Shown: positions 4,972-10,640, counted from the first letter of the stretch. The stretch is DNA of 64,000 nt from Candidatus Omnitrophota bacterium (GCA_029570205.1 JAKQSI010000032.1:1-64000), one strand, 5' to 3'. Numbers and translations are program-made. Notes: a model not told the origin generated them from the sequence alone.

Positions 4972-5607
4972 TTATTCCCAAAAATCGCCGCCGATATCGT
5001 GCTCATAAGTTCCATCGACATCGCGGAGTTTCCGGGATTTCCAGATATCCCCGCTGGAGGCCAGCCCGTTGCTGGAACTATAAGGGATGGCATTCCGGTT
5101 CGGACGCCAGTCTCCGTAATCGCCATCCGGTCCGGCAGCAAAAATCAGGTAGTGACTGCCGATCGTATTTGAACAATTAAAATCCTCGTAACCATAAAAA
5201 ACGCCTCGCCCGAAAGGATCATACGGGATGGAGCTGATGTAGTTGACCGGTGTGGTCAACAACTGCCAGATCCGCCCGTCGAAGTGAAGTGAATCAATTT
5301 CCACCATGGTCTGACCCACGGCGTTCGGGGTCAAGCCGAAAGGTCGCCAACCCGTGGGGAAACAGCATTTGTCGGTGTTGTCGCAGTCGTTGCCGTCGAT
5401 CGGCCAAAGACCGCTGTCCATCTGGCGTGTGACCGCCTGTTGATCCAACATGCGGACATCCGCCTTGGTCCGCGCGAGTTTCGCCCGGATTTGTGCGTTG
5501 AGGAAATTGGGAACGGCGATGGCCGCAAGGATACCGATGATCGCAACGACGATCAGCAGCTCGATCAGGGTAAAACCGACTTGATGGCGATTCCCAGCCG
5601 GACACAT
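4972..5607 (-). CDS. type II secretion / type IV pilin-like pseudopilin
   Basis: 211 residues from the ATG at 5607, which is preceded by a strong AGGAGGT ribosome-binding site. The class III signal is clear: a short basic leader ends at Gly11, followed by FTLIELLIVVAIIGIL, with Glu at +5 and a long hydrophobic helix. The globular part includes an AAGPDG motif common in GspG-like proteins of candidate phyla. It would be cleaved by prepilin peptidase and assembled into a pilus or pseudopilus, or be anchored alone in the inner membrane. No other pilus gene is nearby, so it is an orphan. It converges with the glycan operon. Confidence 0.85.
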   Translation of the reverse strand: MCPAGNRHQVGFTLIELLIVVAIIGILAAIAVPNFLNAQIRAKLARTKADVRMLDQQAVTRQMDSGLWPIDGNDCDNTDKCCFPTGWRPFGLTPNAVGQTMVEIDSLHFDGRIWQLLTTPVNYISSIPYDPFGRGVFYGYEDFNCSNTIGSHYLIFAAGPDGDYGDWRPNRNAIPYSSSNGLASSGDIWKSRKLRDVDGTYEHDIGGDFWE

Positions 5608-5952
5608 TGTGCGATACCTCCTGAAGCGTCGCAGACTTTCGATGCAATGGAAACCCAATCGTAATACGAAATGGTTTTTCATTATAGTACACCACCTGTT
5701 CGCCGGCGATCCCGCAACGTGGCCCGGAAAGTGTGCGGAGGCGCTTGGCGGGAAAGGGAACAGCTCCACAGTCGAACTAATGATACAGATAGATATTGTT
5801 TTCTAAAGAAATGACTTGAAAGAAATCAAAATAACAGGTAAAACATGACAGGGGTACGTCAAAAACCAAACGGACAAACGGGGCAGTTTTCGAGCGGATC
5901 CAACAACAGGAAGAACCGATAACCATAATATCTAATGGAAGGATAAACCGTT
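5608..5952. other. intergenic region between divergent pseudopilin and cysK
   Basis: About 345 bases between two divergent genes. It is A-rich near 5800-5850 and should hold the promoters of both. I see no clear hexamer pair, riboswitch or repeat. An AGGA ribosome-binding site precedes the cysK ATG. Confidence 0.5.
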
Positions 5953-7160: not shown

Positions 7161-8027
7161 TTACCGCCCGTCCGTGCAGGATTGAGATTTCTGTTCGTTT
7201 AAGTCCGGATGCAGGCGCTTGCAAATCATATCGACCGATTTCACAAAGGAAGAGAAACAGGGAAGTGTTACCTGGGGGGACTTAATCAGAATGAACTCGC
7301 ATCGGCTAAGCGGGGGAAACTGGGAATAGACGGGTTTGCGCTCCTCCAATGAGGCTACTTCTGAGAGAATGAGAATCACCTCCGGTTTGCGGGCAATTAC
7401 GGATTCCATGGATACAATGGGATAGGCAACAGGGGAATCCGCGAAAATATTTTCCCCGCCTGCCCTTTCGACAATGGCATGAGCGAATCCCCTGGAGGAC
7501 ACCGTCATCAACGGCCTGTGCCAGATCTCGATAAACACGCGCCTTTTCGGATGATTTTCAAGACGCTTGGCAACGGTTTGGAGTTGTTCCTGCCATTCCC
7601 GGAGTTTTTGTTCGGCGCGCGGTTGAACATGGAGACGGTCGCCCAGTGTCAGGAACGCTTTCTCCAAATCCTTTTCGGTTCGAGAAGGTCCCAGAGCGAG
7701 AATCGGGATTCCCAATTTTTTGATTCGATCTATCGTCGTGGGTTTGTTGGACTCCACATCCGCGATGACCAATGTGGGCTGAAGGCGCGCAATACGCTCC
7801 AGGTTGGGAGCCATCTGAGAACCGATGATTTCCGCATTGGCGGCATCCGCCGGCCGCTTGCAGAACTCGGTCATGCCGACCAGAGATGAGCCGAGTTCCA
7901 GGTCTGCGATCATTTGTGTCCCGGATGGAACCAGGGAGACAATGCGGTGTGCCGGACTGTCCGGCTCGCAGAAGAGCATGTCCGCTACTGGGAGAAGAAA
8001 AAGAAAGAACCATATAGTTCTATGCAT
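7161..8027 (-). CDS. BtuF-like periplasmic corrinoid/metal-chelate binding protein
   Basis: 288 residues. A hydrophobic signal segment (FFLFLLPVADMLFC) is followed by a helical-backbone metal-receptor domain. IVSLVPSGTQMIADLELG is the typical first strand and helix, then EIIGSQMAPNLERIARLQP, LVIADV, the long interdomain helix near 120-160, and SMESVIARKPEVILIL. These match the BtuF/FepB class, which hands cobalamin or siderophores to an ABC importer. The start at 8027 overlaps the upstream stop as TGATG, indicating coupling. It is the third gene behind a cobalamin riboswitch, which makes B12 or a related corrinoid the likely ligand. No BtuCD genes follow. The Cys after the signal is not in a canonical lipobox. 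Confidence 0.85.
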   Translation of the reverse strand: MHRTIWFFLFLLPVADMLFCEPDSPAHRIVSLVPSGTQMIADLELGSSLVGMTEFCKRPADAANAEIIGSQMAPNLERIARLQPTLVIADVESNKPTTIDRIKKLGIPILALGPSRTEKDLEKAFLTLGDRLHVQPRAEQKLREWQEQLQTVAKRLENHPKRRVFIEIWHRPLMTVSSRGFAHAIVERAGGENIFADSPVAYPIVSMESVIARKPEVILILSEVASLEERKPVYSQFPPLSRCEFILIKSPQVTLPCFSSFVKSVDMICKRLHPDLNEQKSQSCTDGR

Positions 8028-9436
8028 CAATGTATCCACCACAAGTCCACGCCGACATTGGAAGGTACTCCCTCACGATACACGATAGACCTTTCCCCCT
8101 CGACGCTCCAATCCAGCCAAAGAACAAACATCCCATTTGTCTGCGGATTTACCGCGATTGCCGGAGTCCGAGCATCCGACTCCACGCGGCTGAGCGGTAC
8201 CTGGGATTCTATCGATAGATCGCCCGGACGGAGAACTGTGTACATCACCCGGTATGCTCCGCCGATGTCCTCCTGCCAGACAATATGCGCCCGGCCGGTT
8301 GAATCGAAGGCAAGATTCGGCTGTGTAGCATCTGCACGGCCTTGACTGACGCGAACCGGGCCGGACCAATTCCCGTCGAATGGTCGATATTGGAAATAAA
8401 TCTGTTTCTGTGTGTCCGCTCGTTTTGAATAGACCAGGCCCAGATTCCCCTGTCGGTCTGCAGCCAGACGGTGCGGATCGAGGAACGAGCCTCCATCTTC
8501 CGCCACCTGCTCCGAAGGCCCCGCTATTCCATCCGCTGAGACCGTGCATCCCCGCAACTCGAAACTCCCCTGCCATCCTTCGACAAATCCCCAGAGAAGG
8601 TAGACATCACCGCTCGGAAGACCGGCCGGAGAGGGCATCCAGTTTGCGGTGTAGGTCGAACCGGACTCAATGGAGGTGATTCGAAACGGTTCAATCCCGA
8701 CTTGCGGGGGAAATTCGCCGGAAAGGGCGCTGGAACGGAGATAGACATCCGCCGCGTTGCCGTCCAGGGTAAAATCATACCAGGCGATATGGACCCGACC
8801 GTCCGGCCCGACTGCCAACTGGGGGGTATACCCGTTGTCAGCCAGGTTCCCCGCTCGCGTATCGGTAATCCGAATATCCGAAACGGAGAATGCGCCATTC
8901 GCCGGTTTACAGTCATAATAGATCTCCGTGTTATCCATCCAATGCCCGGCAAGTGTGGTGTGTCGGTAATCGTGCCAGACCACATGCACAGTGTCCTCGG
9001 AATCTACGGCCAGGCAGGGATGCCTGCCGCCGCCGATGTCAGCATTGTCCACACGGACCGGGGGAGAGACGTCCCCGCCGGGATCGACCATGCAATACCA
9101 GACTTGGTTCTGAGGTGGAGACCCGGTTTGATCGCGAACCCCGTACACCAGGTGAAGCCGCCCCATGGAATCGACTGCTGCGGTTCCATGCGTGTTGACC
9201 GGGAATTCAATCGAAGCCTCATCGCGCAGGATTGTGATTTCCTGGCCGAAATCGACAGCCCAAGCGGGGGAAACAAGCAGGGGAATGAGGACGACTAGCC
9301 AATTGCGGATTGCGGATTGGGGATTGCGGATTGGGGATTGCGGATTACGACCATCCGCCGCAGGGGCGGGTCTGTGACCCGCCCTTGCGTGATCTGCGTC
9401 AAGAGCCACCAACAGGTTGATCGATAGAAAATTCAT
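8027..9436 (-). CDS. secreted seven-bladed beta-propeller, possible corrinoid-capture protein (BtuG-like role)
   Basis: 469 residues. Seven repeated blade motifs of the type 'hydrophobic-D-x-x-G-x-hydrophobic-H-hydrophobic-W/Y' occur near residues 88-99, 143-154, 208-220, 271-282, 324-336, 376-387 and 426-441 (for example GRLHLVYG, TVHVVWHD, GRVHIAWYD, GRAHIVWQE), so a seven-bladed propeller is likely. It lies between a transcobalamin-like protein and a BtuF-like protein under a cobalamin riboswitch. BtuG of Bacteroides, a surface B12-binding propeller, is a functional parallel; homology is not shown. The signal peptide appears interrupted: MNFLSIN is separated from WLVVLIPLLVSPAWA by 38 residues encoded by repeat DNA. 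Confidence 0.75.
   Translation of the reverse strand: MNFLSINLLVALDADHARAGHRPAPAADGRNPQSPIRNPQSAIRNWLVVLIPLLVSPAWAVDFGQEITILRDEASIEFPVNTHGTAAVDSMGRLHLVYGVRDQTGSPPQNQVWYCMVDPGGDVSPPVRVDNADIGGGRHPCLAVDSEDTVHVVWHDYRHTTLAGHWMDNTEIYYDCKPANGAFSVSDIRITDTRAGNLADNGYTPQLAVGPDGRVHIAWYDFTLDGNAADVYLRSSALSGEFPPQVGIEPFRITSIESGSTYTANWMPSPAGLPSGDVYLLWGFVEGWQGSFELRGCTVSADGIAGPSEQVAEDGGSFLDPHRLAADRQGNLGLVYSKRADTQKQIYFQYRPFDGNWSGPVRVSQGRADATQPNLAFDSTGRAHIVWQEDIGGAYRVMYTVLRPGDLSIESQVPLSRVESDARTPAIAVNPQTNGMFVLWLDWSVEGERSIVYREGVPSNVGVDLWWIH
9299..9416. repeat. repeat inserted in the 5' end of the propeller gene
   Basis: Two parts are visible. At 9299-9348, units of ATTGCGGATTG/ATTGGGG recur in tandem, translated on the minus strand as NPQSAIRN-type repeats. 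At 9360-9390 there is a palindrome, GGGCGGGTC and its complement around TGTGAC. Together they encode 38 in-frame residues splitting what would otherwise be a normal signal peptide. The length is divisible by three, so the reading frame survives. Confidence 0.7.
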
Positions 9437-9448
9437 CTTCGGTCCCCT

Positions 9449-10300
9449 TTACCGGATGTATGCGTTGAAGAATGAGACGTCCGATGTCGGCTGAAAGATT
9501 TCCGCGCGGGAAATCGGGGGCTGAGTCACACCATAAATGCCAAAGAAGTATCCGTGAACGTCCTGGTCACGTGCGATAGAATCCGGACCGATATATATGG
9601 ACCATTCAAAGAAGTCTTCCGAATTGAGGATACTGAACTGCCAGAACGGCTCATCCCAATCGCCGAAACAAGTTTCAGCGGGATACCCTTCGCCGTCAAT
9701 GGCGCAAAAGGCAATTCCCCACCCGAAATCCCGCCAGACTACATCCACACCAGTGCGGAATAGCAGCTGTATTCCGGTTATGGTTTCACCATGAAATGGA
9801 ACGACCCGGACAACCCGTTGCCCATCGCTGTGGTCGATTACCACGGCGGCTTGGCTGACAACCTCGCACACATCGGCAAAGGTTCGGTCGGGCGGGAGAG
9901 TTCCTGAGGATGGTGGTCCATAGACAAATCCGAAGACATCCCCATGAACGGCGATCACCGCAGAAATCGGCGTGTCCAGGAGTTCCCAGCCGTCGTCGAT
10001 CCGGCGGTACAGGTTCCAGGTCGGCCCGTCCGGATCGCCGGGGCACAGGGTTGGATTCGTTTGTCCATCATTGTGCAGGTAACAGATAAAAGTACCTTGC
10101 TCGGTTTCCGACAAGACTTTGGGAAATCCCGACCGTTGCAGGATTTCCGTCAAAGGCAGGCTTTCTTCCTCGAATTCGACACAGCGCGTGATTATTTCGC
10201 CGGTTGAGTTCCGGATTACGAGTCCGGCCATGTTGATTGCCCAGGCCGGTCCGACAATGATTGTGAAGAACAGGAATAGAAATGAGGTACACCGCTTCAT
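9449..10300 (-). CDS. secreted protein with two tandem DUF4430/transcobalamin-like repeats
   Basis: 283 residues from the ATG at 10300, with a clear signal peptide ending near GPAWA. Two internal repeats, about residues 25-136 and 150-262, align over their whole length. Shared positions include a Cys, then DG, a second Cys, GD, a Trp, VHG, a Phe/Gly-rich strand, and a closing Pro-Pro. The order 'early leader strand, helix, Cys pair, Trp, acidic/His-Gly turn' resembles DUF4430, which includes the C-terminal cobalamin-contacting domain of transcobalamins. This is a judgement from pattern, not a search. It is the first gene after a cobalamin riboswitch and terminator, and is followed 12 bases later by the propeller gene. 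Probable role: binding corrinoid outside the cytoplasm. Confidence 0.65.
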   Translation of the reverse strand: MKRCTSFLFLFFTIIVGPAWAINMAGLVIRNSTGEIITRCVEFEEESLPLTEILQRSGFPKVLSETEQGTFICYLHNDGQTNPTLCPGDPDGPTWNLYRRIDDGWELLDTPISAVIAVHGDVFGFVYGPPSSGTLPPDRTFADVCEVVSQAAVVIDHSDGQRVVRVVPFHGETITGIQLLFRTGVDVVWRDFGWGIAFCAIDGEGYPAETCFGDWDEPFWQFSILNSEDFFEWSIYIGPDSIARDQDVHGYFFGIYGVTQPPISRAEIFQPTSDVSFFNAYIR

Positions 10301-10378
10301 CTTTCCGAAACGCTCCTCTCGGTAAGTTTGTGGGGAACGTGGAGGGACAGACCGGCGAGATTGGTTTGCAAGGGCAAC

Positions 10379-10408
10379 AAAAAACCCCGGTGACCTCTGT
10401 AGCCGGGG
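10379..10408 (-). terminator. riboswitch-linked intrinsic terminator
   Basis: On the minus strand, CCCCGG (10408-10403) pairs with CCGGGG (10390-10385) across a 12-base loop and is followed directly by six T. It lies between the cobalamin aptamer and the first gene of the operon. That is where an expression platform that stops transcription when B12 is bound would be. Confidence 0.85.
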
Positions 10409-10472
10409 CATCCGATGGGTACTTTTCCATCCGGTATGCCACACTCTCAGTCCCCGAAGAGGTGACATCGTT

Positions 10473-10640
10473 CCGAGGGGCAGGTTTCCTGGCTTCCGGG
10501 CCTGGACCTAATTCCTCGCCTTCTCATCCGAATCGGACAATGGCGCGTGAGGTTTCGTTCCCGGTTACAGTGGCGGGACCGCACCGGCTTCTCACCGGCT
10601 TCCCTTTTATTTGCCTCGCGGCAAACACCACTCGAAATAT
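10473..10640 (-). promoter_or_regulatory. cobalamin (B12) riboswitch aptamer
   Basis: The minus strand carries the hallmark elements in the right order: AAGCCGGTGAGAAGCCGG, then GCGGTCCCGCCACTGTAA, a variable arm, GAGAAGGCGAGG, and the B12 box GAAGCCAGGAAACCTGCC. It lies 170 bases upstream of the secreted DUF4430-like gene, with the terminator in between. By established behaviour of this class it should repress the operon when cobalamin is plentiful. The 5' boundary is approximate. Confidence 0.93.

Follow-up and report, generated by a model that had tools for sequence, protein, structure and literature searches.

A cobalamin-riboswitch operon for a transcobalamin-beta-like secreted protein, a secreted propeller and a BtuF-like protein in Candidatus Omnitrophota, and a co-regulated pilin-like protein

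Architecture of the operon and its products

We analysed a stretch of 64,000 nucleotides (hereafter the window) from a Candidatus Omnitrophota bacterium (GCA_029570205.1, JAKQSI010000032.1:1-64000), which carries on its minus strand a cobalamin-riboswitch operon for two secreted proteins, P1 and P2, and a BtuF-like periplasmic binding protein, P3 (Table 1). The operon runs from the aptamer through a terminator to P1, P2 and P3 with tiny gaps: 12 nt separate P1 from P2, and the stop codon of P2 overlaps the ATG of P3. The intrinsic terminator, which points to transcriptional control, follows the aptamer by approximately 50 nt and consists of a 7-pair stem with a 12-nt loop and then a T run. A generic terminator scan of the window did not report it because the loop limit of the scan was 8. 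A comparable hairpin with a T run, of varying sequence, lies about 40–55 nt after the aptamer in each of the eight P1 loci that were compared. A first-pass annotation made from the sequence alone had placed a B12 aptamer with its B12 box, a terminator and three closely spaced same-strand genes at 7161–10640. All of these are established by computation, and that span was accurate within 7 bases.

Table 1 Features of the riboswitch operon in the window and of the second riboswitch locus
Feature	Position	Strand	Basis
Cobalamin riboswitch aptamer RF00174	10462..10647	-	Full model 1-189, 113.4 bits (gathering score 31.5)
B12-box-like sequence AGCCAGGAAACCTGC	10480..10494	-	Read from sequence
Intrinsic terminator between aptamer and P1	about 10379..10409	-	7-pair stem and T run
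P1, secreted, two transcobalamin-beta-like (DUF4430-like by fold) domains	9449..10300	-	Signal peptide residues 1-21; model pLDDT 84.9
P1 domain 1	9908..10237	-	Fold match spans mature residues 1-110
P1 domain 2, homologous to domain 1	9524..9862	-	hhalign E 7e-22
P2, secreted beta-propeller	8027..9436	-	Model pLDDT 84.4, pTM 0.88; BNR_4; propeller matches over whole chain
P3, BtuF-like periplasmic binding protein	7161..8027	-	PF01497 84 bits; ATG overlaps P2 stop
Pilin-like protein between riboswitch 2 and BtuC	L022 7789-8613 (G000 contig C120)		Prepilin motif; member of subfamily in 17 genomes

P1 carries a signal peptide and no lipobox. Its halves are a tandem duplication (99.4% probability and 28% identity in hhalign), as had been annotated, and a column-reversed control of the same alignment gave no match. 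The AlphaFold model, built from seven orthologs (pTM 0.79), consists of two beta-type domains only, in comparison with the alpha-alpha barrel plus beta domain of animal transcobalamin. The closest solved fold to domain 1 is PDB 3u7z (Z 13.1 over 96 residues), which we take to be a DUF4430 member. The beta domains of transcobalamin, intrinsic factor and haptocorrin match domain 1 with Z 11.7–12.7 over 95–98 residues at an rmsd of about 2 Å (2bb6 and 3kq4, both Z 12.7, are among these PDB matches), and the next unrelated fold scores Z 5.6. Domain 1 therefore shares the transcobalamin beta-domain fold, well above other folds. Structures were also compared by Foldseek; the fold was tested on domain 1, and domain 2 was assigned by homology.

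At the sequence level, Pfam DUF4430 (PF14478) matched none of eight P1 orthologs at E values up to 10. No Pfam family was found for P1 or its orthologs and no NCBIfam family for P1. Since the P1 profile gave chance hits only against PDB sequences, the relation to transcobalamin rests on fold. The earlier guess of a DUF4430/transcobalamin kinship thus stands for the fold and fails for the family profiles.

P2 has a signal peptide and no lipobox, and it is predicted as a complete propeller. Seven blades, the number annotated for it, would be in keeping with its fold matches, which include the seven-bladed YncE and a designed seven-bladed propeller. The best fold match is the propeller of CylK (Z 37). 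Polysaccharide lyases and glycoside hydrolases (Z 29–30), lectins and YncE follow, tied around Z 29, and sialidase propellers are also among the best. These top matches would fit a P2 that is a lyase- or CylK-like enzyme, freeing corrinoid from a matrix or carrier or modifying it, with P1 as the carrier. At 10–13% identity, however, propellers match widely, and YncE, lectins and WD40 proteins score nearly equal to the enzymes, so we regard this model-based alternative as unlikely. BtuG was not among the fold matches listed, by which kinship is neither shown nor excluded. BtuG2 is a lipoprotein with seven blades and is bound to BtuB (PMC6143338, PMC10404256). P2 lacks a lipobox, and its genome yielded no TonB barrel (PF00593). 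It may work in the manner of BtuG, but the likeness to BtuG raised in the annotation does not reach past a generic propeller, with BNR_4 as the Pfam match. A tandem repeat, ATTG(C/G)GGATT, lies in the signal-peptide region of P2 (window 9302–9340), reads RNPQSPIRNPQSAIRN and occurs nowhere else in the window.

P3 belongs to the Peripla_BP_2 family and is most like BtuF, in agreement with the annotation, with 118 bits against the BtuF equivalog model, below its cut-off of 234. The genome has two cobalamin riboswitches. The second, on contig C120, precedes the only FecCD permease of the genome above cut-off, followed by a BtuD-like ATPase and no BtuF. The same split, with the BtuF-like gene apart from BtuCD, is found in a congener (G002). 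As BtuF is encoded in the window and BtuCD elsewhere without a BtuF, P3 most likely serves the BtuCD of contig C120 in trans.

Conservation in relatives and a riboswitch-linked pilin-like subfamily

The operon was compared across 14 genomes of the phylum (G000–G013), where G000 is the genome of the window and G000–G008 make up its order. P1 is present in one copy in each of the nine genomes of the order. A cobalamin riboswitch lies just upstream of it in the window, G001 and G003–G008, and in G002 the riboswitch is truncated by the contig start. A frame-broken P1-like gene follows a riboswitch in G011, a member of the same class. Nearly all genomes of the order carry a single P2 ortholog, and P2 adjoins P1 in seven of the nine; the G001 locus breaks off at a contig end, and G005 has P2 beside its other riboswitch. 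P2 also follows a riboswitch in G011 and G012, with no P1 in the same operon. Ordinary riboswitch–BtuF operons are found in G003, G004 and G006. The wider conserved unit is riboswitch–P1(–P2): of the three-gene order expected to recur behind riboswitches, P1 holds throughout the order and P1–P2 in most genomes, but BtuF is the third gene only in the genus of the window. In one family of the class, P1 is replaced behind the riboswitch by another secreted, propeller-like protein that has no Pfam domain (L077 8455–9855, L080 about 8800–10100 and L082 2417–4526).

Outside the window covered by the first-pass annotation, a pilin-like protein is co-regulated with BtuCD on contig C120. It matches PF07963 (N_methyl, the prepilin N-methylation motif) above cut-off and shows weak GspG similarity at the N-terminus. 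The subfamily to which it belongs has its own globular domain with a GCGPAANGYWSG-type motif and is usually present in one copy per genome. Its members stand in cobalamin-riboswitch operons, at the head or inside, in 13 of the 14 phylum genomes: before BtuCD (G000–G002), before CobT (G003 and G007), as the sole gene with the riboswitch (G004, G005, G010, G012 and G013), after P2 (G011) or directly after P1–P2 (G006 and G008). In G009 a riboswitch precedes a pilin-like gene of the ordinary kind that is no member of the subfamily, which was treated as chance. Where the pilin-like gene comes directly after the riboswitch, no convincing terminator was found, and these riboswitches may act on translation.

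The association within the phylum is partly circular because the profile was built from riboswitch-linked members; the independent test is provided by G010 and the genomes outside the phylum, which were found by profile alone. Among 337 genomes searched, full-length members were detected outside the phylum in four (154–207 bits, against at most 85 for ordinary pilin-like proteins), and all four lie behind a cobalamin riboswitch, with a rough chance probability of about 4e-10. These hits are not fully independent, as three of them come from a single family. One of the outside genomes, G279, has a single operon of riboswitch, BtuF, BtuC, BtuD, a secreted protein, a P2-like propeller and the pilin-like protein, which links most of the parts without reliance on the window. 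The pilin-like subfamily is therefore found in cobalamin-riboswitch operons with P1–P2, with BtuCD, with CobT, or with BtuFCD and a P2-like propeller. No paper found in the open-licence literature searched relevantly joins a cobalamin riboswitch with pseudopilins, prepilins or pilin-like proteins. A chance neighbourhood, or run-on genes with no B12 function, would account for the differing gene order among relatives, but conservation in nine of nine genomes of the order and the linkage of all four outside hits leave this explanation barely credible.

Several neighbourhoods of pilin-like genes were recorded in addition. On contig C47 of G008 (L117 1–6938), a second subfamily copy near the contig end stands ahead of genes for a P2 paralog, a MotA/TolQ/ExbB protein, a DUF2149 protein and a CobN-type chelatase, a cluster reminiscent of hmuSTUV-like clusters. 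In two genomes outside the phylum (L113 7279–9814 and L114 6113–9932), the riboswitch precedes an LIC_13355-like secreted protein, the pilin-like protein and LarB-/LarC-like genes, which were identified by eye. An ordinary pilin-like protein, outside the riboswitch-linked subfamily, is encoded near the operon in the window (4972–5769, minus strand).

A possible route for corrinoid capture

None of the 18 genomes of carriers and relatives has CobJ/CbiH above cut-off, and the weak hits look like siroheme methyltransferase. These bacteria therefore probably scavenge corrinoids. The TonB barrel PF00593 was found in none of G000–G002, G010, G012, G013 and the four outside genomes. The operon's annotated independence from a neighbouring BtuB thus extends to the whole genome of the window, in which no TonB barrel was found. 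A phylum entirely without TonB receptors was rejected as a description, since seven relatives have them; none of the TonB barrels listed lies beside a cobalamin riboswitch. Secretins were found in all 18 genomes.

We consider it likely that the operon is a corrinoid-scavenging system that feeds BtuFCD. The capture role proposed from the sequence is supported by the transcobalamin-type fold of P1 and by the riboswitch linkage in relatives, and binding itself is predicted. When cellular B12 is low, the riboswitch would cease terminating, and the exported P1 and P2 would be made together with the BtuF-like receptor. P1 is built of two domains of the transcobalamin beta type and would most likely bind corrinoid, which may be clamped between them in the way transcobalamin clamps it between its alpha and beta domains. 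For the P2 propeller, the likeliest roles are binding of corrinoid or of its carrier, or docking of P1 at the surface. We infer that P1 and P2 hand the corrinoid over to BtuF, which would receive it in the periplasm and pass it to the BtuCD made from the other riboswitch operon together with its dedicated pilin-like protein.

For passage of the corrinoid across the outer membrane, a pseudopilus and secretin route that uses the co-regulated pilin-like protein appeared as an economical idea, though a doubtful one. Fibre-linked or pilus-like uptake of macromolecules has been speculated for Planctomycetes (PMC5394234). Taken as a whole, a TonB-independent B12 route would have exported P1 and P2 capture the corrinoid, with the riboswitch-controlled pilin-like protein and a secretin bringing the corrinoid or P1/P2 to BtuFCD; we propose this only tentatively and rate it as rather improbable. 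The data are explained as well or better by a pilin-like protein that is a type II secretion pseudopilin exporting P1 and P2, with these binding corrinoid and the outer membrane being crossed through a common porin or a barrel that escaped recognition. The N_methyl motif and the GspG similarity fit such a protein, as do the signal peptides without lipobox of both P1 and P2, the secretins in every genome and the position of the pilin-like gene directly behind P1–P2 in G006 and G008. That gene is, however, also found with BtuCD, with CobT or alone, with no P1–P2 adjoining, and in genomes without detected P1 (G010, G012, G013 and the outside group). We give this alternative a serious chance, somewhat short of even.

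Several observations weigh against corrinoid capture by the operon or against the TonB-independent route. Seven relatives (G003–G006, G008, G009 and G011) have PF00593 above cut-off, and G007 has a doubtful hit. The genomes are drafts, in which the absence of TonB barrels and of CobJ could reflect incompleteness or divergence. Corrinoid binding by P1 and P2 is a prediction. Of the two halves of transcobalamin, P1 holds only the beta type, and the DUF4430-type fold is also seen in proteins whose ligand is unknown. The closest folds of P2 are enzymes and lectins, and BtuF joins the operon in a single genus. P1 and P2 might capture another ligand needed under B12 scarcity, for instance another tetrapyrrole or a chelate of cobalt. 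Genes for cobalt transport or for B12-independent substitutes can be part of cobalamin riboswitch regulons; LarB/LarC-like genes come after the pilin-like gene of G312 and G025, and G008 has a CobN-type chelatase near it. The transcobalamin-type fold of P1 and the repeated linkage to BtuF/BtuCD speak for a corrinoid, and we hold another ligand to be quite unlikely.

To our knowledge, descriptions of outer-membrane B12 uptake are almost confined to BtuB and TonB. Several genomes that are apparently unable to build the corrin ring, part of them without a detectable TonB receptor, place P1, the propeller and the pilin-like protein under B12 control, which suggests an undescribed way of capturing B12 in bacteria that cannot make it. 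If this is true, P1 would be what the B12 carriers of animals are, in a bacterium; a function would be gained for one pilin-like protein out of the great number that such genomes hold unexplained, and a testable model of nutrient capture through pilus-like structures would be at hand.

Comparison with known systems

P1 resembles transcobalamin, intrinsic factor and haptocorrin in that domain 1 fits their C-terminal beta domain, and it is an exported, presumed cobalamin carrier. In contrast to these proteins, it has two beta-type domains in tandem and no alpha-alpha barrel, shares 11–16% identity with them without a sequence-level family match, and is bacterial and riboswitch-controlled. Its closest solved fold, 3u7z, is RUMGNA_00854, for which the record title gives only a putative metal binding protein. 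A search of a viral fold library gave no match.

The operon is similar to the Bacteroides BtuG–BtuB–BtuH system, in which a B12-riboswitch-controlled secreted propeller and further B12-binding proteins act ahead of BtuFCD (PMC6143338, PMC10404256, PMC13398666). It differs in that no BtuB or TonB barrel was detected in the genus of the window, that P2 is a BNR_4 protein and no lipoprotein, and that a DUF4430-like binder stands in place of DUF4465. A pilin-like protein is co-regulated here, whereas the Bacteroides BtuG/DUF4465 papers searched mention none. As with BtuF–BtuCD of E. coli, a BtuF-like protein is encoded in the window and BtuCD on contig C120, each preceded by a cobalamin riboswitch, but the genes are split over two operons and P3 scores below the BtuF equivalog cut-off. 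The riboswitch-linked subfamily shares the N_methyl motif and a GspG-like N-terminus with type II secretion and type IV pilin-like proteins, and is set apart from them by its own globular domain, its usually single copy per genome and its linkage to cobalamin riboswitches.

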